NCBI GenBank assembly: GCA_003024785.1
Contig: PUQB01000800.1
Location: forward strand, 32,218-96,217
Length of the DNA: 64,000 nucleotides
Direction of reading: 5' to 3'
Source of the DNA: Selaginella tamariscina
Lineage: Eukaryota > Streptophyta > Lycopodiopsida > Selaginellales > Selaginellaceae
The notes below the pieces were generated by a model that had not been told where the DNA came from, searched no databases, and worked only from the letters and a program-made list of their open reading frames with translations. This document shows, piece by piece, positions 14,287-41,174 of this stretch. Position 1 is the stretch's first letter; each line of letters begins with the position of its first letter. The position numbers and the translations under genes were made by a program.

Positions 14287-15877
14287 AGCTGATGCACTCA
14301 ATAGGAAGGGTCCATCTTCATATTATGTCAGCACAATGTCAACTTTGGTGGATGAATTTGTGACAGTGTATCCTCACGACGAGTTTGCTAAGAAGGCTTT
14401 GAACCTGGTAAGCAAAGAAGAAACAAGTTCATTAATTACGAAAATATGGTATTATTCCAACATGAATAGAAAGTCGAATGGATGCACTCAAACGAGCGCA
14501 TTTTGCAATACGAGATGGAGTTCTTTTTTAAAGAAAGGAGACCTATGTTCTAGAGAGGACATGGATGGAGAGGCTGTTAAGAGAGCATCACGACGTTCCT
14601 TTGGTAGGACATGGTGGAAGGCATAAAATGTTAGCTTTGTTGAAACAAGGATTCTATTGGCTGGGTATGATAAATGATGTTGCCAAGTATGTTAAGACAT
14701 GCACCACATGTCAACAAGTGAAGAGTCGATCGCAAAAAACGACTGCAAAGTTGCAGTGTTTACCGATTCCAAAGCGGCCATTTCAAAGTGCTACTTTGGA
14801 TTTTATCATGGGATTGCCAAAATCTTATGGTTTTAACACGCTCATAGTGGTGGTTGATCGATTTTTAAAGGTTGCTCATTCATTTCTACTATAGAGACAG
14901 TGAATGCAAAACAAGCAGCAAAGTTGTTTTTCCACGAGGTCGTAAGAGTGTGCAGGCTATCGGAAACGATAATCTCAGATCAGGATCCTCGATTTATGGG
15001 CAAGTTTTGGCGAACGTTGTTTCAAGCAGTTTGGCACGATGCTGAAGTTGAGTATGGCTTACCATCCGCAAACAAATGGTCAAACAGAGAGGGTGAACTG
15101 ACAAGTTGAGGACTATCTCAGATGCTATGTTCAAGGTGATTAACTTGATTGGGCTGAACACTTGAATATTGCTGAGATATGTATAATAACTCGACACACA
15201 CTGGTTTAGGGTAGCCCAATGGAGGTGTTAAATGAAATAAGGGTGGTATTCCTCAGAGTATGGTGTTACCGAAAGATGATGTTTATCGAGTTTCTCTATA
15301 GTAGAGTTCACTAGAGAGTTGTATCAGACTTGGGAAGCTGCACGTTAAGTGACGGCTGTAGCACAGGAAAGGTATCGTCAGTAGTACAAAGCATCAACGA
15401 GATGTAAAGTATTAGGTTGGGGATATGGTATTGTTGAGTATCAAAAATTTGAAGGTTCCAATAACTCTTTCAGGAAGTTTCTATCGCACTACATAGGTCC
15501 ATACAAGGTGGTGAAGCGAGTAGGGAAGGTGGCTTATGGGTTAGATCGTCCTTCAAAGTTGGGAGCAATACACAATGTGTTTCATGTCAATTTACTCAAA
15601 CCATTTCATGAAGATGAGAAACATCCGTATAGATATTAAGTTTACGTTTGCCTCTAAAATTAGTTGGTGAGGAGAAAGAATTTGAAGTTGAGGCGATATT
15701 AAAAGGGAGGAACATTCATGGACAGCGAAAATGTAAACATGAATATCTTATTAAGTGGAAAGGTTACCCGGCATGCGAGTCAACATGGCAATCATTGGAA
15801 ATCTGCATAACGCGATGGAGGTAGTGAATGAGTTTGAGGCAAGGTTTCAAACTATTGGTAATGGTGATGAGAAATAA
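14287..15877 (+). pseudogene. int: RNase H tail, integrase and chromodomain of the older family 1 copy
   Basis: It resumes with ADALNRKG of RNase H directly after the LTR. The integrase zinc-binding part (HHDVPLVGHGG ... CTTCQQ, about 14580-14720) and catalytic core (LDFIMGLPKS, about 14800 onward) are readable but carry several frameshifts and stops (14890, 15100, 15180). A chromodomain remnant at about 15690-15830 keeps [11 protein letters not shown]. It is more diverged from copies A and C than they are from each other, so this is the oldest member of the cluster. Confidence 0.85.
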
Positions 15878-26837: not shown

Positions 26838-26846
26838 TAGTTATAC
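26838..26846 (+). repeat. Left 9-bp target site duplication
   Basis: TAGTTATAC here and again at 41166-41174, immediately outside the inverted termini. Nine base pairs is the Mutator superfamily length. Confidence 0.88.
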
Positions 26847-26895
26847 GGGTCTCGGCGAAAAGGAGGCTCCGGCTCAGGAGGCTTCATATTATTCT
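26847..26895 (+). repeat. Left terminal inverted repeat
   Basis: It starts GGGTCTCGGCG and contains GGAGGCTCCGGCTCAGGAGG. The reverse complement of the right end starts GAGTGTCGCC and contains GGAGGC...CAGGAGGC at the same spacing. The first 21 positions match at 13. Confidence 0.7.
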
Positions 26896-27062
26896 AGTAT
26901 ATTCGCGGATATTCTAGGGTTATTCTAGCATATTCTAGAATATTCTCAAGAATATTCTAGAATATATAAGTTTTTTTAATATGCCGACTGGTTTAATATA
27001 CGCCGACTGGCTTAATATATGCCGGCTGGCTTAATAAAACATTATCCTAAACCCTAAACCAT
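26896..27062. repeat. Left subterminal repeats of the transposon
   Basis: Several AATATTCTAGAATATTC-like palindromes (about 26890-26965) are followed by three near-copies of GCCGACTGGCTTAATATA (26980-27038). Confidence 0.7.
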
Positions 27063-29604
27063 TTATCCTTGTAGCACCGGTGGGTCATGTACTCTATTGT
27101 AATTCACTAGCAAACGGTGGACCTCCATGTCACTGAGCGATCGCCTTTGTAGAAAATATGTGACTTCCAGGTTCAAGCCAAGCACACGGCTATAGATGAA
27201 GTACATGTGTACACATGGGCTCCAACTTTTGCTCTTCTGAAATGTAGAACAACTGCATGAAGGATAAGTATTAATAGTCACCTTTGCAGAGTCATTTCCT
27301 GCCGACACAACGAAAGCCTCTTTCCGTCCTCTAGCTGTCACTTCAACATTTCGCACACAACCTAAAAACGTCTTGGCCTTGCGGAAATTCTTCTCTTGTT
27401 CCTTAGACATTTTTGTTGGAGTCCGAACCATACGTCCTTCGAAAGGTGGAATTGTTGTAGATCCAGCTCCACGTGGTGGCGATGGTGTTTTGTCCTTCTG
27501 ACCCTCATCTACTCTTCCTGCCATCCCCTGTAAACCTTCCAGAACAAAGCCTGCATCATGTAGTTCTCTGACCTCCTCACTTGTCAGCTTCGTTTCCTTG
27601 AGCACAGGCCAAACCGTTGGTGGTGTTGGAATACGTGACCGAAGAATTTTGCCGTTTGGCTGCGTGAAACACCCTGAATCTTTTGGGTAGAACCACATCA
27701 TCTGTTGTGCATACTCCTCATTCCCCAAGGCATCAATGTACATTCGTTTTCCATAGAATCCTGGTGCTGGCACTCTGCTTGGATAACCGATTGGTTTTCC
27801 ACACAGAGCAGTTCCTTCCTGATTCATCCCCAAACTTAACCTTACTGGATGCTCCGATTCGTCTGATGGCCCACTCTGTTTGAGCAATCTCTCTCTCCGA
27901 AACCTCTTCGAACCTTAACCTCTTTCTCCTGTTGTTTTGGACCACCCACTCTGTGTACTCTACATCATGTCTGTGTGAACGTCGAGCATCAGACTGTTCT
28001 GTTCCTGTGACTGTTCTCCCTAACAGTTTGCACTCGAACGTTAGTGGTACTCGTGAACTCCGGGCTGGTCAAGTGTTCCTCGCCTTCCACCAGATTAATA
28101 ATTGTTGATGGAGATACACTTTTCCCCTCAGAGAGTTTGCGTTGCACTCGTTTCAACAGAGTTTCCTTCGAAGGCCCTGACCCTGTATACCTCCCTTCTA
28201 TTGCCGCTTTCACCTTCGCACTCTACATAACTGCATCGGTGAGGTCTAACATTGTCGCCTCCAGCAGTGGTACTCTTTTGGCCAATCTTACTCTTCTTGC
28301 TCTCGCGTGAATCACTTCAGCATTGTTTGTAGTTGGAACGCTCGCGAGTCCTTCTTCTGTCATGTCTCCCAGTTCCGCCATGGAGATGTGATCCTCATGC
28401 CTGATCCACCAAGACAGCCATGTCTTCAAAGCTCGAATGTTTGACGCTCGTCCTTCCCAAAAAGACTCGAGAATTGCCAGTTGTTCTTTCTTAGATTGTT
28501 CATTCAGTGCTGCAGGCCAGGCACGAGCAAGCTTCATGTGTTCTTCGCGATGTTCTTCTGCGATCCATTTCTTTGTCACCTGACGCACGGATTGCATAAA
28601 GTGAAACAGACAGCTTCTTTCCCTCCCTTTCATCTTTGCTCCGTTGTTGAATACTTGGCGCAAGGCTATCCATATCGCTCCAGCCTCATCCGACATGAAA
28701 CCAGTAAAGTTGACATTCTCCAAACCCTGCTTCTTACAAACCTCTAGCATTGTGTTCAAGAACTTCAGCACTGCAACATTATCTTCGCGGCACATATCTG
28801 CGTAAGCTATAGTCACCATGGATCTGACACTGCAAGGAGCGTTAGATAACGAAGATTAGAAAGTGTTATGAAGAGTTTTACAACTTACAATGGGTCATAA
28901 AGGTGTATTCCAATTGTCGCCCAGTCTGGTATGCGGTGCGTGTGGTCCAGAACAACCCATTGATCATGAAGGTCTCCTCCACTTTGACACCTTCTGATGT
29001 ACTCAACTCCTGAACCCGGTCCCTCAACTGTCATTTTGAAGATCAGAGGCTGCTCCTCAGCACCATGCAGTTCCATCCCTGGAACATATATGACGTGAAT
29101 GAAAGGTATTGGCAGCTTTGTCTTCAGCTCCAGAAGACCCTCGTAACCCTCTCTAAAGTGTGTCTCCTTCTGTCTTGATTGTGTAATCTAGTCCCGAGTC
29201 CTAAAGAAAAGGTCACGTCAGTGTGTAGAGATCTAAAAAAAAATATCTTCGATGGTTTGTTAGAGGTTCAAGTTTTGAGAGTAAACCAGTGTACGAGACT
29301 TCTCCTTCTTCCTTGAAAAGTTCTTCAAAGATGAGCTCACGCGCGGCTTGAAACTCAATCACTCGTTGATTGGTTCGCGGACTGCTCTTTACCACGTTGC
29401 TGACACTATATCTGGCTCGCTGAACGTTTGAAGCTGACACTGAGGGGCTGACTGGATGCTGATGAACACCTCTATGAATGAACAACCTTGTAAAAGAAAT
29501 GTCGTCTGGCAGAATGTAGTACACATAAGCCGGACAAGTGTGCACCAGCAATGGCTCCTCTCCACAATGCTTACATTTTATGCCTATTACTTTGCCTGTC
29601 TCAG
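27063..29604 (-). pseudogene. Mutator-like transposase, catalytic and SWIM part
   Basis: Minus-strand exons carry the DDE core: first Asp in WVVLDHTHR (about 28957), second in FMSDEAGA (about 28694), the CLFHF (CxxH) motif after it, and Glu in TTNNAEVIHA (about 28325). A C-terminal SWIM zinc finger (CSCSTF...CVH, about 27225) precedes the stop at 27063. A 59-bp GT-AG intron lies at 28830-28888 and another acceptor near 29190. Zinc-ligand pair CKHCG near 29560 marks the N-terminal domain, cut at 29604 by the LTR element. Frameshifts occur near 27890, 27985 and 28220. The order and motifs fit Mutator-like transposases, which excise and insert by DDE chemistry. Confidence 0.85.
29599..29603 (+). 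repeat. Target duplication of the inserted chromovirus (TCTCA)
   Basis: TCTCA stands left of the element and again at 35734-35738. One extra G separates it from the LTR's TG start, so the exact boundary could be shifted by one base. Confidence 0.6.
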
Positions 29605-30132
29605 TGTCACGACCCGATACAGAATACAGGATTCCGGAAAAAGGACATGGGTTGCAGGATTTTCCTACAGGATATTCCTACCAGGATTCTGGACACAGGA
29701 TTCGGTTGCAGGATATTCCCACAGGATATGCCTAAGGATAAGGGACATGTGGACTCATCTTAGCCTCTGCATGCATGCAATCACTTTTGCATGCATGCAA
29801 CCACTTTTGCATCATGCCTAGATTAGCTCTTGGAGTTGTGAGCATAAAAGCTCCGACCTAATTGTTGTACAATCAGTTACTATCAACACCAGTCTTACTA
29901 CGATCAATCTGTCTTGTCTTGTTCTTGTCTTGTTTCCTGTCCTGTTCCTGTCTCGCTCCTTTTCCTGTCCTGTTCCTGGATCCTTCCTGCTCCTGGATCC
30001 TGTCCTGTTCCTGTCTTGTTCCGGATCCTATCCTGCTTCCTGTCTTGCTCCCGGATCCTATCCTGATCCTGTCTTGCTCCTAGATCCGTCCTGTTCCTAT
30101 TCCTAGTTCCTGTCCTGCTCTCGGTCCTGTTC
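29605..30132 (+). repeat. 5' LTR of the second chromovirus
   Basis: It starts TGTCACGACCCGATAC, identical to 35190. Its second half is a pyrimidine-rich array of TCCTG(T/G)TCCTG-type units. The two LTRs stop matching around 30132, so the 5' LTR end is approximate; no convincing primer site was found. Confidence 0.75.
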
Positions 30133-30280
30133 CTGAGTCAAGCCTTCCTGTCCTTGGAATCCTGTTCTCTTCCTGGTTCCTGGATCGTGGCTTGACAGTT
30201 TGATAGTAACTGCTTCATAGTTCTCCGTTTTCCAGCTACCTTTTTTCTTGATTCTTTTCCTCCTTTTTCTTTCCTAGATC

Positions 30281-31258
30281 ATGGCTGATTTTGAGCGCTT
30301 TCAACGCGAGCACCAAATGCTACTTCATGAGCTGGCCACTTTGCGCCAAGTGGTCACCGACCTGCAAGGTTCCACCACTGCGGCACATGCAGCTGCTGAT
30401 GCATCCTCCAAGGCTGCTGCGCAGGCTCTCTCCCAGGCATCGGTGGTTCCCTCTTCATCAAACTTTTCTTCGGAGCCGAAGGTTAGCATGCCAGAGAAGT
30501 TCAGTGGCAATCGTGCCGATTTCCAAGGTTTCCTGAATCAGATCCGGCTCTTGATCCGTATGCAACCACGGCGCTACTCGACTGATGCTCAAAAGGTGGG
30601 TCTTTTGGCATCCTTACTAAGTGGATCTCCACGGGCTTGGGTTGCCCCCTTGCTGGAGCGTGACGACCCATTGATGGAAGACTTTGAAGGTTTCGTGGCT
30701 GCCTTTGAAGCCTGTTTTGGAGATCCTGATAAGTACCGTTCTGCATGCACGAAGTTACGGAAGCTCACTCAAGGATCCCGACCAGCTTCCGTCTATGCAT
30801 CCGAATTTCAGCAACTTTGCACGAACATTCCATGGGACGAGACTGCATTGATCGAACACTTCCGTTTTGGGTTGAGGGATGACGTGAAGGACCTTCTCCT
30901 TACGTTACCGGATGCCCAAACATTAGCGGAGATCATGCAACAAGCTGTTCGTTGCGACAACCGTTTGTTCGAGCGTCGTCAGGAAAGATCCCGTCAGCAG
31001 TTCCTGCAAACCAATCCTGCAGCTGTGGTACATGTTCCTGCACCACCTTCTGGAGTAGTTCCTATGGAGGTTGAGAAATCCAAGCGTGGCTCTCTTTCCG
31101 CTGCTGAGAAGCAACGTCGTCGCAGTGAGAACCTGTGCTTGTATTGTGGTGGAGCAGGACACAAGGTGGCAGATTGTCCTATTAAAGCCAGGAACTTCAA
31201 GACGCGTGAAGTTGAAGCTGAAGTTCAGTCGGAAAACTCCAATGTCCACTTCGTCTAG
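30281..31258 (+). CDS. gag: gag of the second chromovirus (intact)
   Basis: A 325-codon uninterrupted frame from the ATG at 30281. It has an N-terminal coiled-coil-like region (FQREHQMLLHELATLRQ), an Ala-rich linker, the retrotransposon gag core (residues about 65-200, PEKFSGNRADFQGFLNQ onward) and a CX2CX4HX4C zinc knuckle (CLYCGGAGHKVADC, residues about 284-297). It would form the virus-like particle. This is the only full-length retrotransposon frame in the window, which suggests a relatively young insertion. Confidence 0.9.
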   Translation: MADFERFQREHQMLLHELATLRQVVTDLQGSTTAAHAAADASSKAAAQALSQASVVPSSSNFSSEPKVSMPEKFSGNRADFQGFLNQIRLLIRMQPRRYSTDAQKVGLLASLLSGSPRAWVAPLLERDDPLMEDFEGFVAAFEACFGDPDKYRSACTKLRKLTQGSRPASVYASEFQQLCTNIPWDETALIEHFRFGLRDDVKDLLLTLPDAQTLAEIMQQAVRCDNRLFERRQERSRQQFLQTNPAAVVHVPAPPSGVVPMEVEKSKRGSLSAAEKQRRRSENLCLYCGGAGHKVADCPIKARNFKTREVEAEVQSENSNVHFV

Positions 31259-34200
31259 GAGCCGCGAAGTTGGACGTAGGTGCAGGCTCCATTGGTGCTG
31301 CTCATACCATCCATCACTTAAGTTTCCTGTACACATTCATCTTAATAATCGAGAGCTCATGGAGTTTGCCTTGTTAGACACTGGTGCAAATGCATGCTTC
31401 ATGGATGACACGTTTGCAACTCAACATGGCATTTCGGTGGTGAAGTTGAAGCGTGCAGTTCCTGTAGAGGTGGCCGATGGGCGTCTGATTGCTTCTGGCG
31501 CAGTTACCCATGCTACCGAACCTCTCTCCTGCAGTTATGGCACATTCAACTGTTCAATTTCCTTCAACTTGATCAAGACTCGGTCGACTCCCATCATTTT
31601 GGGCATGCCATGGTTCGTTGTTGCAAATCCGCAGATCGACTGGAGGTCTAGGACGCTCACGTTTTCCTCTCCGACAGCTAGGATCAATCCTGTACCTTCC
31701 TGTGTGCAGGATACATCCTTAGTATCTGAGGCAGTACAAGCTACAGGATTGACCGTGCCTGTTCCTGTACCAGTGTTGAAGACTCCTCCTCGACAGGATT
31801 CACCTCATGTCAGTTCCTCAGCACATCCGCAGGCTCTCTCCACTCCTGTAAGTTTGCGGTGTCCTGTACAGGGTTCTTCCAATCCTGTATCAGTGTCGAA
31901 GGTTCCTCCTCAACAGGATCCACCTCCTGTTGATTCGTCAGCACATTCGCAGGCTTTTCCCACTCCTGCGCAACCACGGACTCCTGTACAGGATTCTTCC
32001 AATCCTGTACACTCATCAACACCACACAGGTTTTTTCCAATCCTGCTTCTTTCTGTTACCCTGCTTCTGTTCCACCCCCAAGATCCTTCCTCTTTTTCAG
32101 TCACAGCTCCCTCCTTCTCCTCTCCGAGTTCTTACCACTACCATGCATGAACTCGCCACTGATCCTGCTCCTTCCACCTTTTTGCCTTTCAAGTAACTCC
32201 TACGTCCTCTTCTACCTTTCCTGTATCCGACTCCTGTTTTTCTCCTTCTCCTTCTCCTTCTCCTCCTTCTTCCCTACCATCCAAGTACCACGACTTTAAG
32301 GACGTTTTTGACAAGCACAAGGCTGCAGTTCTTCCTGTTCACAGGTCCTACGACTGTCCTATTGATCTTGCGGAAGGAAAGACTCCACCATTCGGACCGA
32401 TTTATGCATTGTCACCCACAGAGTTGGAGGTTCTTCGTCAGTACATCGAGGACAACTTGGCATCCGGCTTCATTCGTCACTCAAAGTCCCCTGCAGGAGC
32501 GCCTATCTTCTTTGTCAAGAAGAAGGATGGGAGTTTACGTTTGGTTGTGGACTACAGGGGTTTGAATCAAGTCACCATTCGGAATCGGTACCCGTTGCCA
32601 TTGATCCCGGAACTTCTCGATCGGCTGCGAGGAGCAAAGGTGTTCACGAAGATCGACTTACGAGGGCCTACAACCTTGTACGGATTCGTCCCGGCGATGA
32701 GTGGAAGACTGCCTTTCGTACAAGGTATGGACATTTTGAGTACACGGTAATGCCTTTCGGCCTTACCAATGCCCCAGCTGTGTTCCAACACATGGTGAAC
32801 GACATTTTCGTGACTTCTTGGACCAGTTTGTGGTGATCTACCTCGACGACATCTTGATTTTCTCCAAGGACCAGGCGGCACATGACAAGCATGTACGACT
32901 AGTTTAGAGCGGCTTCGCGAGCATGGCCTGTACGCGAAGTTGGAGAAGTGTTTTTTCGATAGGGATTCGGTGGAGTTCTTGGGCTACATCGTCTCTCCTG
33001 CTGGCGTTTCCATGGACATGCACAAGGTGAAGACCATCGTGGAGTGGGAGAGGCCCAAGTCGGTACGAGATGTACAATGTTTCCTTGGCTTTGCAAACTT
33101 CTACAGGCGGTTCATACAGGACTTCTCCAAGCGTGTACTTCCACTCACAGAACTCACCAAGCGCACAGGATTTTCTCTTGGTCCGACAAGGCGGAACACG
33201 CGTTCACAACACTCAAGGACGTTTTCACGACAGCTCCGATTTTAGCACATCCTGACCCTTCTCATCCTTTCTTCATTGAAGCAGATGCCTCGGATTTTGC
33301 AGTAGGATCCGTCCTATCGCAAGTTGGAGAGGACAAGTTGCTTCATCCTGTAGCTTTTCACTCTCGTAAGTTCCTGTCGGCGGAGATCAACTACGAGATT
33401 CATGACAAGGAACTCAAGGCCATTGTGGATTCGTTTGAGGAGTGGCGGCATTTCCTGGAAGGTGCTGCACATCCTGTACAAGTTCTTACGGATCACAAGA
33501 ACCTGGAGTACTTTCAAACGGCTCGGTCTCAGTCGGCGACAGGCTAGGTGGGCAGAGTTCCTATCACGTTTTGACTTCGTCATCGTCTACAGGCCCGGCT
33601 TTCGGAATGGCAAGGCGGACGCATTGTCTAGGCGCTCTTACCTTGCACCAAGCCCGGGCGATCCTGCATTTGACTGTCAAAGGCAAGTGTTGTTGGGTCC
33701 TGATCGTTTCCGGCTTGCGGCACTGCAGGTTCATCAGGCTCCAGCAAATTCAACACTCCTACAGGACGTCCGTTCGCAGTTGGCTACAGACGACTTGGCA
33801 AAGAATGTGTTCTCACACATTCATCCTGACTCCTGTACCGGGAAGGTCTCCTGTACGTTCCTGCTGGTATTTCTAGGACTCGTGTGGTACAGGATTGTCA
33901 TGATACCCCGGCTACAGGACATTTTGGTGTGGCCAAGACAGTGGAGTTGGTGACTCGCAACTATTTGGCCTGGGTTGCGAGGTTTTGTGGAGAGGTTTGT
34001 ACGGAGTTGTGACACTTGTAGCAGGTCGAAGATGCCTCATCATGCACCCTCTGGTCTTCTTCGTCCTCTTCCTGTTCCGTCTGCTCCTTGGAGATCCATT
34101 TCTATGGATTTCCTCACAGATCTTCCTCCTTCTCGTGGGTTTGATGCAGTTCTTGTGGTGGTTGACCGTTTCACCAAGCAGGCTCATTTCCTACCCTGCA

Positions 34201-34866
34201 ACAAGACAGCTACAGGTCAGACAACTGCCGAGTTGGTGATCCGCGAGGTGTTCCGACATCATGGTCTTCCTGAGAGCATTGTTTCCGATCGAGGTCCACA
34301 ATTCATGTCCAAGTTTTGGCGAGAGCTTCTTCGGAGTTTACAGGTCAAAGCGGATCTTTCTTCAGGATATCATCCACAAACCGATGGGCAGTCCGAACAC
34401 ACAATTCAGACCTTAGAACAGTATCTCCGTTGCTTCATCAGTTACCAGCAGGACAACTGGTTGGACCTCCTTCCAATGGCGGAGTTTGCCTACAACAACT
34501 CCATCCACACATCTACAGGACAGACACCCTTCTTTGCTCTTACAGGTCACACCATCCACGTTTTGATTTTGCTCCTCCCGCTTCTCCTTCTTCCGCTCCT
34601 GCAGTACAGGATCGTCTTCAGCATCTTCGGCAGGTACAGGATGATCTCCAGGTTCATCTTCAACAGGCACAGGAACGATACAAGCATCATGCTGATGCTC
34701 ACCGTCAGCCGGCACCTGCATACAAGATTGGTGATCTCGTGTGGCTTCTTCGTCGACACATTCGCACCAACAGGCCTTCTTCTAAGTTGGATTTTCAACG
34801 ATTGGGCCCTTATAGGATCGTGGCAGAGGTAAATCCTGTAGCTTTCCGACTCGAGTTACCATCCAC
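31259..34866 (+). pseudogene. pol: pol of the second chromovirus: protease to integrase (frameshifted)
   Basis: Aspartic protease motif LLDTGANACF lies near 31373. A long Pro/Ser-rich linker follows, built of repeats with CCTGTACAGGA. Reverse transcriptase starts near 32400, with [27 protein letters not shown] and YLDD near 32840. RNase H has [11 protein letters not shown] near 33280. Integrase has CDTCSRSK (near 34010), the core from SMDFLTDLPPS, ESIVSDRGPQF near 34275 and YHPQTDGQSEHT near 34370. Frameshifts occur near 31260, 32150, 32670, 32800, 32905, 33180, 33535, 33900 and 34550. No programmed shift site is obvious. Confidence 0.87.
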
Positions 34867-35178
34867 ATGAAACTTCATCCCGTGTTTCACACCTCTTTGT
34901 TGGAGCCGTATCATCCTTCTTCTCTTCCCGGTCGTGTTTCTTCTCCTCCCCCTCCTGTGGTCATTGACACGGAACCTGAGTACGAAGTCGCAGCCATCCT
35001 TGACTCTCGTCTTCATCGTCACCAACTCCAATACTTGGTGGATTGGAAAGGGTACCTGCCTACTGATCGCACTTGGGAACATGCATCCAACTTACTCCAT
35101 GCTTCTTCCAAGGTTGCTGCCTTCCATCGGCATTATCCTGCTAAACCAGGTCCCAAGACTCGTGGAACTCGTCTTTAG
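34867..35178 (+). CDS. Integrase C-terminus with chromodomain of the second chromovirus
   Basis: A 103-codon frame begins MKLHPVFHTSLLEPYH, the usual end of a gypsy integrase, and carries a chromodomain: YEVAAILDSR then YLVDWKGYLPTDRTWEHASN (about 34980-35095). It would normally be fused to pol; a frameshift just upstream separates it. In chromoviruses this domain guides insertion. Confidence 0.85.
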   Translation: MKLHPVFHTSLLEPYHPSSLPGRVSSPPPPVVIDTEPEYEVAAILDSRLHRHQLQYLVDWKGYLPTDRTWEHASNLLHASSKVAAFHRHYPAKPGPKTRGTRL

Positions 35179-35189
35179 GGAGGAGGTGC

Positions 35190-35733
35190 TGTCACGACCC
35201 GATACAGAATACAGGATTCCGGAAAAAGGACATGGGTTGCAGGATTTTCCTACAGGATATTCCTACCAGGATTCTGGACACAGGATTCGGTTGCAGGATA
35301 TTCCCACAGGATATGCCTAAAGGATAAGGGACATGTGGACTCATCTTAGCCTCTGCATGCATGCAACCACTTTTGCATGCATGCCTAGATTAGCTCTTGG
35401 AGTTGTGAGCATAAAAGCTCCGACCTAATTGTTGTACAATCAGTTACTATCAACACCAGTCTTACTACGATCAATCTTGTCTTGTCTTGTTCTTGTCTTG
35501 TTTCCTGTCCTGTTCCTGTCTCGCTCCTATTTCCTGTCCTGTTCCTGGATCCTATCCTGCTCCTGGATCCTGTCCTGTTCCTGTCTTGCTCCCGGATCCT
35601 ATCCGGTGCTTTCCTGTCTTGCTCCCGGATCCTATCCTGATCCTGTCTTGCTCCTAGATCCGTCCTGTTCCTATTCCTAGTTCCTGTCCTGCTCTCGGTC
35701 CTGTTCCTATTCCTAGTTCCTGTCCTGCTTTCT
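35190..35733 (+). repeat. 3' LTR of the second chromovirus
   Basis: Begins TGTCACGACC after the purine tract AGGGAGGAGGTGC. It is nearly identical to the 5' LTR for about 500 bases, with length changes in the TCCTG array. Confidence 0.82.
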
Positions 35734-35738
35734 TCTCA

Positions 35739-36304
35739 AAAGCCAAGTAGGGGCATGTAGGATTGATGCATTGGAGATGTCCGACACATGAACTTCGACT
35801 GACTCGCGCCGGAACATGCCAGTGTTGTGCTCGGGTGTGTCCAATGGTAGCAGCTATCCTTGCGATTCATCCCCGAGTACTTCTCTCTGTGCTTTCTGTC
35901 TTAGGGGGAAGTTCGAAAATGACATTTCCATTGTATATCTGCGTAGTTCAGAGACTCGTTTAACTTCAGACGAACCAATGAGATCCTTCCCTATCCTACA
36001 TTTGTCTGCTCTTAGAAGACAAACCAGCATGGATTCCTCACGCTCCTCTGTCCGCAACCTGAACAACGGGCCCTTTGCCGGGCACAATGTGTAAAAGACA
36101 AACTGGTTTGATGCATTGCCTTCTGGTAACAACTCCACATCTTCTCCAGAACTCGCAAAAAACTGACATCAATTGGACCACATGTATATTGAACCAACAA
36201 GGAATGTTGAAAGCAATGTGAAGATCATGTTCAAACACAAAAGCATTTCCATCTTCATCGACTGGGAAATCTTTGTCAATGCCTTCATAGGTAACTCTGG
36301 CCAT
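35739..36304 (-). pseudogene. Mutator-like transposase, N-terminal part
   Basis: The frame opens with the ATG at 36304 (MARVTYEGIDKDFPVDEDGNAF) and continues, over small frameshifts near 36200 and 35855, through LPEGNASNQFVFYTL to a Cys-rich end (CVGHLQCINPTCPYL, near 35770). The chromovirus cuts it just after that; the partner Cys pair CKHCG lies on the far side at about 29560. Together these look like the zinc-binding N-terminal domain of a Mutator-like transposase. The start is the first ATG after an upstream region without other conserved frame. Confidence 0.75.
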
Positions 36305-36806
36305 GACAATGCAAGGAGAAAGCTCGGTGGTTTAGGAAAGCAAAGCAAAAGATTAAACACACACTTTCTCTTACCAAAAAAAAATTACAATCGTTAACAA
36401 TAAACGTGAATACACGTTTGTATATAATTAATTCTATGCTGCCCAGTTTACAGTGTTCTTAATGATGTCCTCTCTAGTATCACCGATTTAATTTAATTTC
36501 TACCTTTTATGATTTGAAATATCTTCACATTTACCAATTATTCACATATTTAAAATAAACCCTAAATATTAATGTCACATTTATTCCATAGGGTTCACTG
36601 TTTTCATTGCGGCTAGGGTTTTTTGGTAGATAGGGTTTACTGTTTCCATTGCGGCTAGGGTTCTTTCAATCTCAGATCTGTTTCCACTGCGGCAGATCCA
36701 GAGGGTTTCTTCAATCTCAGATCTCAGAGTTACGGTTTCCACTACGGCACCATCCATTTCGACTCGATTCGTGCAGCGCCCAAGTATAACAATGGAGATT
36801 TCTGTT
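36305..36806. promoter_or_regulatory. Divergent promoter region between the two transposon genes
   Basis: About 450 bases separate the transposase start from the first repeat unit of the methyltransferase gene leader. It is AT-rich at left. At right (36585-36770) are three diverged copies of TTTCCATTGCGGCTAGGGTT with CAATCTCAGATCT repeats. No coding sequence. The divergent layout implies that both genes are driven from here; this is inference. Confidence 0.5.
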
Positions 36807-37671
36807 TATTTGGGTCTTCTTATTTGTGCCGACTGAGAGCAACGGCACCATCCTGGTTCAGTCGGCAAACACAAGGTATCGTCGATTTATTTATTTTTTC
36901 CTTGCGGCTCAAGTATACGTGTCACAATGTTTTTTTTTCCAGAGTTAATGGGTCTTTCCATTTGTGCCGACTGAGAGTGACGGCACCATCCTGGTTCAGT
37001 CGGCAAAAACAAGGTATTTTCGATTTGTTTTTTTTTTGCTTTCTGGCTCAAGTATTCGTATCACAAGGTTTTTATTTTCAGAGTTAATGGGTCTTCCCAT
37101 TTGTGCCGACTGAGAGTGACGGCACCATCCTAGTTCAGTCGGCAGCCACAAGGTATGTTCGATATATTTATTTTTTGCTTTCTGGATCATGTATTCGTAT
37201 CACATTGTTTTTTTTCAGAGTTAATGTGTCTTCTCATTTGTGCCGACTGAGAGTGACGGCACCATCCTTCTTCAGTCGGCAGCCACAAGGTATTTTGAAT
37301 TTGTTTATATTTTGCTTTGCGACTCAAGTATCCGTATAACAATGTTTTTTTTTCAGAGTTATAGTGTCTTCCCATTTGTGCCGACTGAGAGTGACGGCAC
37401 CATCCTTCTTCAGTCGGCAGCCACAAGGTATTTTGAATTAGTTTTTTTTTTCTTTGCGTCTCAAGTATTTCTTTTAAAAACAGTTAATGGGTCTTCCCAT
37501 TTGTGCCGTCAGAGAGGGACGGCACCATCCTATCTCAGTCGGCACCATTATCTCTTCAGTGCCGTCTGACAGAGTCGGCACAAAACTATCTCAGTCGGCA
37601 GGTTTTTTCTTCTACATCTCTCTGCCGACTGAGAGGGTCGGCAGCATCTAGCTTGAGTCGGCAGCCACAAG
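36807..37671 (+). repeat. Tandem array of exon-like units in the 5' leader
   Basis: Six units of about 137 bases. Each holds an exon-like block of about 71 bases, starting after a CAG acceptor and ending in ACAAG before a GT donor (36943-37013, 37082-37152, 37219-37289, 37357-37427; the first ends at 36875, the last spans 37484-37671). Inside each of the first five blocks TGCCGACTGA is followed about 21 bases later by its inverse TCAGTCGGCA, able to form a hairpin. Introns between them would be T-rich and 65-70 bases long. The last donor pairs with the acceptor at 37738, eleven bases before the ATG. Confidence 0.8.
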
Positions 37672-37748
37672 GTTAGTCATCTTTGTTTGTTTTTTTATTT
37701 TGACTCCTCATCAATTGACTTGTGTGTTTACTTTCCAGAGTTTACAAA

Positions 37749-38640
37749 ATGGTGAGAGCTTCAAAACGTCTACTAGAGACTGCACCTGATGAAGAGCCAC
37801 GGGAAGAGAAGAGGATATCGAAGCAAAAGCGAGGCAAGAGAGGAGAACCATCTAATGTAGCAAAGGAGGATCCTCCAGTGACTCAGTCTGGAGTAGTAGC
37901 AGTTGAGCAAGAACAGCCTCCACCAACAATCACAGATTTCCCAGAGAGCTCGTCGCAGTTGCCTCCTTCATCCACTGAGGTTGCAGTCCTGAACGAGCAG
38001 TGCAGATGACAGAGGCAACTGAAGCAAGCGAGGACGACTTGGAGGAGGCAGTCAGCAAAAAGAGAGGCCGCGGAAAGCTGATCCAAAAGGCAAGAAGGCG
38101 AAGAGCGATAAGGAGCCGAAGGAGTTATATAGCATACCGGCTAGCCTGCATTTGGAGAGCTCAGCGAACCTGCTCGACAAAATTACTATCAAGGGACTTG
38201 GTGATCCTCCTGATGTGCCCATCTGCAGAATACATTCCAACGAGGTGGTTCGACGAGTGAACCCAGGGGACTTGGACAAGCTGGTGTCATCGTTGAAGAA
38301 GGCTGGTTATCTACGCAACACGGCCTTGTTCATTCTGTCCATCGGAGATCGACTCACTGCTGAGGAGCTATCAGAGCTGTCGAAGGACACGATTCAGTAC
38401 GAGCAGCACCGGTCTTCGAGCAAGCTCTTACTCAGCCGGAGTACAAACAGTGGGCTTCAAGGCTCTCAAACAGGAAGTTTAGCTGCTGGGACGGGAACCA
38501 TAGGCTACAGGCTTTGCAGAAGCTGTACTGAGAGGATGCAGAGGACAACCAGCGATGGGCTATTGCGTTCAATCGAGTTTCATCTCCACAGAGAACCTCG
38601 ACATTCTTCAACTGGTTTCGATGTTCCAATCAATTAACAT
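37749..38640 (+). CDS. ParB-like domain part of the transposon companion gene
   Basis: The frame opens at ATG 37749, just after a splice acceptor, with a Lys/Arg- and Glu-rich, nuclear-signal-like N-terminus (SKKRGRGK). A ParB/sulfiredoxin-like fold follows: PICRIHSNEVVRRVNP, then LDKLVSSLKKAGYL (about 38215-38320), and the hallmark WDGNHRLQAL near 38485-38515. ParB-type folds bind or cut DNA or hydrolyse CTP; which applies here is unknown. The frame shifts near 38000, 38095 and 38415, and a TGA follows the motif. A donor at 38641 ends the exon. The domain call rests on motif and order, not on a search. Confidence 0.65.
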
Positions 38641-38696
38641 GTGAGTATTTTCTTTTCTTTTTGTTAAGAGTTTAGACTTACAGTTTCGTTGAACAG

Positions 38697-39951
38697 ATCT
38701 TCAGCAACATCTATGGAAACAACGCTACCACATATTCTCCTCGCTGTAAAGGCGGTCTGCACTAGTACAGAAGGAACTCAGAAAATCCTCGAGTCACTCA
38801 CGGAGGTTGACCGTCTTGAGGTGCGGAAGTGGAAGGAGAGTTCATCAGGAAAGACGGCTTGGCATCCTCTTCCGAACCTGATCTGCGCAAAGATACTTTT
38901 CAAGGTAACCTCCGATTTAATTTATAGGAAAGAAATTTTTAACTTGTTCTATGTGCAGAACGAGATCGACGATGATCTCAACAGAGCAGTCACCAGTGCT
39001 AAGGGCAATTCACAGGTTGAGTGAACCTAAAGCAGCTAGTGTACAAGAAGCATGACAAGCGTATGCACAAGTTCCTCTCCATCACAGACCCAGACTTGGG
39101 GGAGGAGTGGTTCCAGAAGGTGACAAACATCTCTCATAAGCAGTGTCGCTGGATGGGCATTGAGAAGCTGTATGCGATGTCAAGGGCGAAGATTCCAAAC
39201 ATGCTGCGACTCCGATACCTGAACAAGCTCACCCGTCTCGAATCCAAGGCAGAACAACAGACACTTGGGCTACCGGGCATGCAGGACAAAGAGTGGATCA
39301 AGTGGTTCACCTTGGACTTATATTGGAAGGCTGTGCGCGAGGAAGCCATTCAGATCCTTAAGGGGTTGCGAGAGGATGGTGAAGAAGTTGGAACGGATGT
39401 CGACTTCATGAGCTGGTTTGACGAGATGAGAATTCGGAGCAAGTGCCTGGTCTTTCAGCCCTTCCATGACTGCATACGGTTCACTTATTCGATGGAGCCG
39501 AATGAGTTTCTGGAGCGTGAGGAATCTGCGCGTCGGATGATATGGAGGTAAGCTTTCAATCCAGCATTGCTACTGTCTGACTTTGTGTTGCAGGTTCATA
39601 CTGGCGAAGCAAATGACACCGTCCCATACGATGAAGCTGTGGACAGATCATACAAGCGAGCCTCACATGTGGTCGAAGAGCAGAGGAGCTCTAACACCGT
39701 TCGAACGGGAGCATGTTCCATTCTGGCTCGACTGTCCGTCGCAACAGCCACCAGCTTGGGAGAGCACACTATTCGACATGCACGCCAATGATCTACCAGC
39801 GATTGTTTGGGAGCCAGAAGAAGTAGAGGCTATCAAGAAGAGCAAGATGAAGAAGACGGTGCGGAAGACAACTACACCTGCAAAGGGATCGGGAGCCGGG
39901 ACCAAGCTCTTCTACAGCACCTCCGCCGGCATTCGACTTTACAATCAATGA
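38697..39951 (+). CDS. Middle part of the ParB-methyltransferase gene
   Basis: Exons 38697-about 38904, about 38960-39017 and 39021-39547 are separated by GT-AG introns (38641-38696, about 38905-38959), then a 46-bp intron at 39548-39593. The encoded region is mostly helical and rich in Trp and Lys (LRLRYLNKLTRLESKAEQQ, KWFTLDLYWKAVREEA, FVPFWLDCPSQ-like). I recognise no known domain here. A one-base shift lies near 39018 and another near 39925. It connects the ParB-like and methyltransferase parts. Confidence 0.6.
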
Positions 39952-40971
39952 GGTACAGCCACTTGTAGCTAGTTTGGACATCAAGGACGACCTGATGACC
40001 TTCATCCCGACCCTGGCTGCATCCCGTGGATCCTACGACCTAGCTGTGTGCGACATGGAGGAGATGAGCAGGTCTTTCTTCGAGCCAGGTGCTTCCCAGA
40101 CAGAGGTGTACACCAAGCTCCGAGAACAGGTTGACAGACTACATACGGTTGAGTCACAAACGTTGTTCCAGGAAGTGGTAGGTGAATACGGCTTCAACCT
40201 CATCATCCTCGACTTGCCCAATGAGCTTGTATATGGAGGTGCTAGCATCAACAAGGACATTGTGCAGCTAGATCCGGTGAAGTTTGAGGAGGCCTTGCAG
40301 TTCAGTGGAATGCACTTGGCAGCGAGTGGTTTCATGGTCGTCTTCGCGAGTTCTCCTTCTGTTTCGGCGGTGATTCAGGCGGCTGCAGTAATCAACTTGG
40401 AGGTTGCAGGGACTTACAGCGTCTACCGTGCACGAGGCTGGGGATACCGTGACAAAATTAAGGTAAGCTAGCTATTCAAGTTCAAGTTTAACTTGGTCTA
40501 TGTGGCAGGATAACTTGTTAGTTCTCTTGGTGCTGCAAAGCTCTGAGAAGAAGTCGAAGAGGCCAAACCCTCTGGCGTTGACGAACACGATCCTCGTCGA
40601 CACTGCCGACCGTTATCAGGAGGCTTGGTAAGGAAGTGCTTTGCTATGTTTATCCTAATGGAAGATTGTGCAGGATTATGATTCAACCGAAGAGTGTTCG
40701 ACTCATGCAGCTTTTGATCGAGCGTCTCAGTAGACCTGGCGACCTAGTCTGGGATATTGGTTCCGGAACCGGGTCATCATTGTTAGCTGCCGTCGAGCTC
40801 GGAAGGAATATTATAGGAACCGAGAAGAGTTTCGAACTCTCTAGGTTGGCAACAAACAAGCTTGCAGAGAACATTAGACCAGAAGAGTTACCTACTCAAA
40901 CACCTCCACGTCCAAGCGTAACTGGTGGTTCGAGAACTGCAGCTTTACTTAAGATGAAGAAGAAACTTTAG
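39952..40971 (+). CDS. Beta-class DNA methyltransferase-like C-terminal part
   Basis: From the frame around 39940 the region with YDLAVCDMEEMS and GFNLIILDLPNEL (about 40190-40225) sits where amino-methyltransferase motif IV (D/N/S-PP-Y/F/W) is expected, but reads DLPN. Introns at 40463-40508 and 40628-40673 (46 bp each) are clean GT-AG. The last exon gives the AdoMet-binding motif after PKSVRLMQLLIERLSRPGD: GDLVWDIGSGTGSSLLAA, then GRNIIGTEKSFELSRLA (about 40738-40855). Motif IV before motif I is the permuted beta order of N4-cytosine/N6-adenine methylases. The stop is at 40971. DLPN leaves activity open. Confidence 0.72.
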
Positions 40972-41116
40972 CTAATGTATATTGAGTAATAAATTAAGCT
41001 AATATAAAAAAATTAAAAAGAAATACAACAGTTTTAATAGAATTCTTTTTTGCCGACTGAGGCCAATACTGCCGACCAGAAAGAATATTCCAAAATATTC
41101 TAGAATATTCTTGAAT
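40972..41116. repeat. Right subterminal repeats of the transposon
   Basis: TGCCGACTGAGG and TGCCGACCAG (41051-41079) are followed by AATATTCTAGAATATTC-like palindromes (41084-41120), matching the motifs at the left end. Confidence 0.7.
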
Positions 41117-41165
41117 ATTCGAGCCCAGGCCTCCTGGGCCCCAAGCCTCCAAAATGGCGACACTC
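41117..41165 (-). repeat. Right terminal inverted repeat
   Basis: The reverse complement starts GAGTGTCGCC, then GGAGGC and CAGGAGGC, parallel to the left end. The perfect 9-bp duplication follows. Confidence 0.7.
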
Positions 41166-41174
41166 TAGTTATAC
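41166..41174 (+). repeat. Right 9-bp target site duplication
   Basis: TAGTTATAC, identical to 26838-26846. Confidence 0.88.

Follow-up and report, generated by a model that had tools for sequence, protein, structure and literature searches.

Maize MuDR, with its genes mudrA and mudrB, is an autonomous Mutator-type transposon that carries two genes and is flanked by 9-bp duplications. Here we describe a two-gene, probably Mutator-type transposon from the lycophyte Selaginella tamariscina, whose second gene codes for a protein with a predicted C-terminus of the DNA amino-methyltransferase type. It lies in a stretch of 64,000 nt (assembly GCA_003024785.1, contig PUQB01000800.1, 32,218–96,217 of the forward strand), called the window from here on and used for all coordinates below. 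The closest functional analogue of the second protein is VANC of the Arabidopsis element VANDAL21, likewise a Mutator-like element (MULE) with an extra gene. In the available portions of the sources cited here, VANC21 is described as binding a short motif in tandem repeats, which leads to loss of DNA methylation (PMC5735166, PMC10398659), and its tandem-repeat targets as lying in non-coding and terminal regions (PMC5735166). The same partial sources report retrotransposons carrying DNA methyltransferase (DNMT) genes in Symbiodinium and Klebsormidium (PMC5890265), DNA transposons carrying TET/JBP genes in fungi (PMC12730594) and SET-carrying MuDR elements in Phytophthora, a survey table listing PMD, FAR1, ovarian tumour (OTU) and SET among the accessory genes of MULEs (PMC6446971). 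In bdelloid rotifers, N4CMT is reported as a host gene for an amino-methyltransferase of bacterial type that is tied to transposon silencing (PMC8885841).

The composite element of S. tamariscina is real, multicopy and recently mobile. In the window it spans 26847–41165 (14.3 kb, including a nested retrotransposon), and the transposase gene and the second gene are divergent, both reading outward between common ends. A first-pass annotation of the window had proposed outward, divergent genes within the ends, an intron-containing second gene and a perfect 9-bp duplication, and all of these hold: the window contains TAGTTATAC at 26838 and 41166 and nowhere else, each of the nine full-length copies read has the second gene between its ends, and the six exons and five GT-AG introns of this gene are kept in 30 of 30 aligned copies, with the frame broken in the window copy. 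The inverted termini that it reported are present and conserved between copies, but they are short and imperfect, with 19 of 37 positions identical without gaps and a gapped local score of 26 that was equalled by one of 2000 shuffles. The layout of the element is as follows:

26838–26846, unstranded: left copy of the 9-bp target-site duplication TAGTTATAC, with only two occurrences in the window
26847–26883, plus strand: imperfect left terminal inverted repeat of about 37 bp, an end shared by other copies
26933–27030, unstranded: left subterminal region, with GAATATTC palindromes and GCCGACTG motifs (26983, 27002)
27063–36304, minus strand: transposase gene, ATG at 36304 and stop at 27063–27065, split by a retrotransposon
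29605–35726, plus strand: nested long terminal repeat (LTR) retrotransposon, LTRs about 29605–30197 and 35190–35726, the 3′ LTR truncated; foreign to the element
36811–37660, unstranded: central array of units of about 137 bp, with an inverted TGCCGACTG pair in each
41051–41120, unstranded: right subterminal region, with TGCCGACTG (41051) and GAATATTC palindromes
41129–41165, minus strand: right terminal inverted repeat; matches of other copies end at or within a few bases of 41165
41166–41174, unstranded: right copy of the target-site duplication TAGTTATAC, flanking the element

The genome (300.7 Mb in 1391 contigs) was searched by blastn with positions 37700–41165, and 40 of 897 candidates were scored. 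There are at least 40 copies of the second gene, the window's included, with 98–100 % identity and near-complete query coverage. Thirty of the 40 were taken as loci for alignment and analysis of the ends, and their mean pairwise substitution divergence is 0.24 %. The first-pass annotation had called for a search for further copies with both genes between similar termini, and such copies exist: of ten joined copies, nine have the full length, with both genes within the same ends, and L010 is without its left part. Both ends were readable at 27 of the 30 loci (L010, L018 and L034 could not be judged), and perfect 9-bp duplications, of 18 different sequences, were found at 18 of these 27. In L029, L031 and L036 the duplication is perfect once the end is shifted, by eye, by 1–2 nt, and the six others (L014, L015, L017, L024, L025 and L037) have no duplication. 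With these six of 27 loci set apart, neither a second gene outside the ends nor a failure of the ends and the 9-bp match to be conserved between copies was seen in the copies read. Loci L014, L015, L017 and L024 lack the duplication, yet show zero substitutions from the second-gene consensus; such copies may derive from the misjoining of identical repeats in the assembly, or from recombination. At L033, L034 and L037, the left part of another copy is found 0 to about 1 kb past the right end, an arrangement that represents a nested or tandem insertion.

The 14.3 kb previously taken as the size of the element had to be abandoned, since about 6.1 kb of it is a nested retrotransposon that had gone unreported. 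The element proper measures 8.3 kb, and the nine other full copies range from 8.28 to 8.71 kb; the window copy is longer because a young LTR retrotransposon inserted in its transposase gene. By eye, the latter is of the Ty3/Gypsy type and took the place of about 44 bp of the element; its LTRs differ by 4 substitutions per 528 aligned bases, indels aside, and it was not found in the 10 other joined copies compared. The central array appears variable among copies. Its unit resembles, by eye, an intron-exon unit (TTTCAG ... CACAAG/GTATTT), and tandem units of this array may serve the second gene as a reiterated exon in its 5′ untranslated region.

The exons of the second gene, all on the plus strand, are:

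37749–38640, plus strand: exon 1, with putative ParB-like stretches at 38212–38265 and 38484–38516; the frame is broken here
38697–38904, plus strand: exon 2
38959–39547, plus strand: exon 3
39594–40462, plus strand: exon 4, with DLPN (motif IV region) within 40208–40240
40509–40627, plus strand: exon 5
40674–40971, plus strand: exon 6, with motifs X, I (40750–40779) and II (40813–40839) and the PF01555 match

The frame of 992 aa is intact in 10 of the 30 aligned copies and broken in 20, counts on which the frequent single-base indels of this assembly bear; the window copy, which departs from the consensus by 27 substitutions and 8 indel columns, is among the broken ones. By profile, the C-terminus of the second protein is predicted to be of the DNA amino-methyltransferase type. 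It is matched in the last exon by PF01555 (profile positions 165–219, E 1.5e-9), and the second protein is matched by the phage DNA methyltransferase family phrog_67 (E 1.8e-10) and by a hidden Markov model (HMM) of eight phage methylases with an E of 2.1e-17 (best of 200 shuffles, 0.13), a value flattered by the choice of these methylases for matching the second protein. The HMM aligns motifs X, I and II only (residues 898–966), leaving the motif IV half unmatched statistically, and tblastn against phages gave short C-terminal matches, with the best 20 of 146 records spanning the motif X/I/II part. The order of motifs is IV first, then X, I and II at the C-terminus, with motif IV placed from alignment alone. 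The beta-class methyltransferase of the first-pass annotation is thus recovered for motifs X, I and II, but not for motif IV, which reads DLPN. A single-sequence query against 5.8 billion proteins returned no close relative of the second protein in the best 7994 scored, and none was confirmed in the viral and prokaryote contigs searched for relatives.

A search of the same genome with PF01555 gave 739 candidates; the best 150 were scored, all 150 over the cut-off, and about 139 of them were assigned to a second family by profile span and exon size. This family is known from one copy read, L076, while C565 (L077), another PF01555 match read, belongs to the first family, with 97 % DNA identity. 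The L076 protein, joined over two frame changes in exon 1, is identical to that of the first family at 486 of 833 aligned residues (58 %) and retains the ParB-like stretches, DLPN and DIGSGTGSS; its introns, as placed by eye, are at corresponding sites, exon 5 not being placed. Between families, nonsynonymous divergence (dN) is 0.33 and the proportion of synonymous differences (pS) is 0.84, which is saturated, so that no ratio can be given; codon positions 1, 2 and 3 differ by 32, 24 and 61 %, respectively, a pattern that fits purifying selection on the second gene. A search with the transposase exon yielded 1808 candidates; among the best 150, which were scored, there are 30 matches at 79 % identity, and for at least 20 of these a second-family methyltransferase match lies 4.9–5.7 kb off on the opposite strand, reading outward. 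At least two families have the methyltransferase-type gene as an integral second gene. In these first-look counts, candidates for the transposase exon (1808) outnumber those for the methyltransferase domain (739), and some derivatives may lack the second gene.

Searching the 5.8 billion proteins with a profile of both families identified one relative in the best 7996 scored, SELMODRAFT_402005 from Selaginella moellendorffii, a 666-aa model annotated as 'hypothetical protein' (E 1.3e-75, 28 % identity over 69 %). It retains GDPPDVPVCR..NEVVRRVN and GTGTGTTLLAAL, and the GNHR and DLPN segments are missing, perhaps from a gene model that skips their exons.

Both families carry arrays of the motif TGCCGACTG. 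There are 15 in the window element versus one in the 49.7 kb of the window outside it, and the three 8.3-kb copies examined have 16 apiece, where a Markov-1 model predicts 0.055. These sites occupy both subterminal regions and, for the most part, the centre, with five inverted pairs 32 bp apart in the 137-bp array. In L076, the 440 bp that precede the ATG hold 11 TGCCGACTG motifs, of which 10 pair up as five perfect palindromes CCCAGTCGGCATGCCGACTGGG, and one further motif is near the right end; this upstream DNA gave no alignment with the first family below E 0.09, the short matches including TGCCGACTG. The second protein probably recognises TGCCGACTG, because the layout parallels that of VANDAL/VANC, and the arrays would likely be its target. 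GAATATTC palindromes are also found at the right ends of both families, the 8-mer occurring five times inside the element and eight times in the rest of the window. The palindromes at 26933–26962 and 41083–41120 fit TTCnnGAAnnTTC, which we take to be the heat-shock-element pattern, with one outside match at 15469.

The transposase motifs, all assigned by eye, are:

28959–28927, minus strand: D motif 1 (DDE assignment)
28702–28670, minus strand: D motif 2
28615–28586, minus strand: H motif, CxxH-like
28333–28301, minus strand: E motif, NNxE
27260–27207, minus strand: CxC..CxH motif

These motifs agree with the DDE/SWIM transposase proposed at first, but profiles did not follow. PF10551 (MULE transposase) was unmatched at E up to 1 or 10, HMMER filters dropping most matches above about 0.1; a genome-wide search with this profile gave 77 matches, none of them this gene, which also does not match a PF10551-positive MULE of the same genome, and the SWIM profile PF04434 gave 14.8 and 13.9 bits (E 0.021 and 0.04), under the 19.6 cut-off. 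Membership in the Mutator superfamily, which is likely, rests on the duplications, termini and motifs because there is no PF10551 match. Single-sequence structure predictions were uninformative (predicted local distance difference test, pLDDT, 41 for the transposase, and 32), and no relatives of the transposase were present in the best 7979 scored candidates among the 5.8 billion proteins. A T run in the transposase has four Ts instead of five, a frameshift, in five of eight readable copies, and five Ts in three, the window included; the frameshift is either an assembly error or real decay, the two being indistinguishable. A separate, PF10551-positive MULE family, with 16 equal-scoring matches (e.g., C102:183580-183867), was apparently active recently.

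The ParB-like motif of the first-pass annotation comes down to a resemblance by eye of the stretch DVPIC...VRRVNP...CWDGNHRL, with profile support that is not significant. When the insert between the ParB-like halves of the family 1 protein was deleted, the best match was to phrog_4715, a 'ParB-like partition protein' (E 0.0083), together with ddrB-ParB (E 0.12), phrog_12305 (E 0.22) and the N-terminal part of the DNA methyltransferase phrog_498 (E 0.23). The family 2 protein matched no ParB profile, and tblastn with the ParB-like stretch gave one weak match in phages (E 2) and one in plasmids (E 10), neither of them ParB.

Sequence variation among the 30 copies comprises 62 distinct substitutions, 27 of which are C>T or G>A. 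These 27 events fall at CG or CHG in 22 cases, versus 673 of 1697 cytosines (P 1.1e-5); part of this footprint comes from the window copy alone, whose 20 private changes include 12 G>A and 2 C>T. Judging by sequence context, the pattern is the trace left by host cytosine methylation (5-methylcytosine, 5mC), and silencing would therefore be a pressure on the element.

The second gene likely has a role in anti-silencing or as a transposition co-factor, as far as its sequence and setting tell. Among the functions suggested in the first-pass annotation (a mark on element DNA, protection of the ends, or the countering of silencing), we favour the countering of silencing because of the recurrent motif arrays and the VANC-like layout: the second protein would bind the element's own TGCCGACTG repeats and keep the element active, a proposal that we consider quite possible while stopping just short of calling it probable. 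DNA would be recognised by the N-terminal part, including the ParB-like stretch, or by the methyltransferase-type fold, and the protein would in this way find the TGCCGACTG arrays; binding, with or without a methyl mark, would lift silencing at the shared central promoter region and/or mark the ends for the transposase, in a VANC-like manner, with the methyltransferase-type domain either writing the mark or binding only; its catalysis is uncertain, as motif IV is DLPN, and not (D/N/S)PP(Y/F/W), in 30 of 30 family 1 copies and in L076. Several observations weigh against this proposal. The VANC domains DUF1985/DUF287 were not found in a Pfam scan of the 888-aa conceptual protein, without its first ~105 residues, which gave PF01555 only, and the ParB-like stretch, besides its non-significant profile support, had no ParBc match and gave empty searches of PDB. 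The motif arrays could instead be targets of the transposase, and the copies were once methylated, so any protection is incomplete. Additionally, none of the copies read could be shown to keep both of its genes whole; in L030 the second gene is intact, and the core of the transposase, which was read in part, lies within an open frame of 607 aa.

In a somewhat unlikely alternative, the second protein would be catalytically active as an N4-cytosine or N6-adenine methyltransferase that tags or protects the ends, apart from 5mC anti-silencing, its mark serving for the recognition of newly replicated or excision-competent ends. The significance of motifs X, I and II speaks for it, as do the retention of DLPN and DIGSGTGSS in two families at 58 % identity and the variability of the second motif IV position in phage relatives, the eight phage methylases reading DPPY, DIPY, DVPY or DLPY. 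However, methyl transfer is uncertain because motif IV is without its aromatic residue, replaced by N in the 30 family 1 copies and the one from family 2, and the motif IV half is without a statistical match. It is rather unlikely that the targeted amino-methyltransferase of this lycophyte transposon would write an N4-cytosine or N6-adenine self-tag at TGCCGACTG that overrides 5mC silencing; if true, a land plant would have a second, transposon-borne system of DNA methylation that co-evolves with recognition arrays of its own. A protein that has lost catalysis and acts as a DNA-binding transposition co-factor, in end pairing or synapsis at the subterminal TGCCGACTG, would agree with the altered motif IV and with motifs at both subterminal regions as well as in the centre; nevertheless, most TGCCGACTG sites are in the central array by the shared promoter region, and not at the ends, and we find this role unlikely. 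Gene fragment capture is common in MULEs, according to the available part of a review (PMC13317346), and the broken frame in 20 of 30 copies, though from an assembly rich in single-base indels, might point to a passively captured host or foreign gene, in the style of Pack-MULEs, with no role for the element. Against this, the gene is full length, with its introns in all 30 copies and an intact frame in 10, accompanies the transposase in both of the diverged families and shows far fewer amino-acid than silent changes between them, a conservation that largely refutes passive capture and makes it very improbable. Finally, short and imperfect termini might be taken to mean that the 9-bp match and the termini arose by chance and that the genes are mere neighbours; this is refuted by 18 of 27 copies, which share their ends but are flanked by 9-bp duplications that differ from copy to copy, and its probability is negligible.

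The element resembles MuDR in having two genes and 9-bp duplications, and differs from it in its outward genes, short termini and methyltransferase-type second gene. The likeness to VANDAL elements lies in an element-specific motif that is repeated in tandem, in non-coding DNA close to the extra gene and to the ends. In contrast to VANC, the C-terminus of the accessory protein is of the DNA amino-methyltransferase type and the host is a lycophyte; the VANC21 motif, given as YAGTATTAY in the available text, also differs from TGCCGACTG. The word 'methyltransferase' is absent from the main text of the MULE survey (PMC6446971) and from the available part of a 2026 review of gene capture in plants (PMC13317346), and no report of a plant DNA transposon with an amino-methyltransferase-type gene was found among the papers listed in the literature searched (titles and starts of abstracts, with few subscription papers and no Repbase). 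With the gene pair and the motif arrays common to two families, a protein and its putative target are at hand that can be tested directly. Transposons with epigenetic enzymes are known from a few lineages and, on the partial sources available, the nearest precedents are the DNMT-carrying retrotransposons and the TET-carrying fungal DNA transposons. Those of Symbiodinium and Klebsormidium are retrotransposons with C5-cytosine DNMTs, whereas the element described here is a DNA transposon with a gene of the amino-methyltransferase type; the fungal TET/JBP and Phytophthora SET elements are, like it, DNA transposons with an epigenetic enzyme, from which it differs in enzyme class and host. The N4CMT of rotifers is encoded by the host, whereas in S. 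tamariscina the amino-methyltransferase-type gene is carried by the transposon itself, which may have a bearing on how bacterial-type DNA methyltransferases enter eukaryotic genomes.

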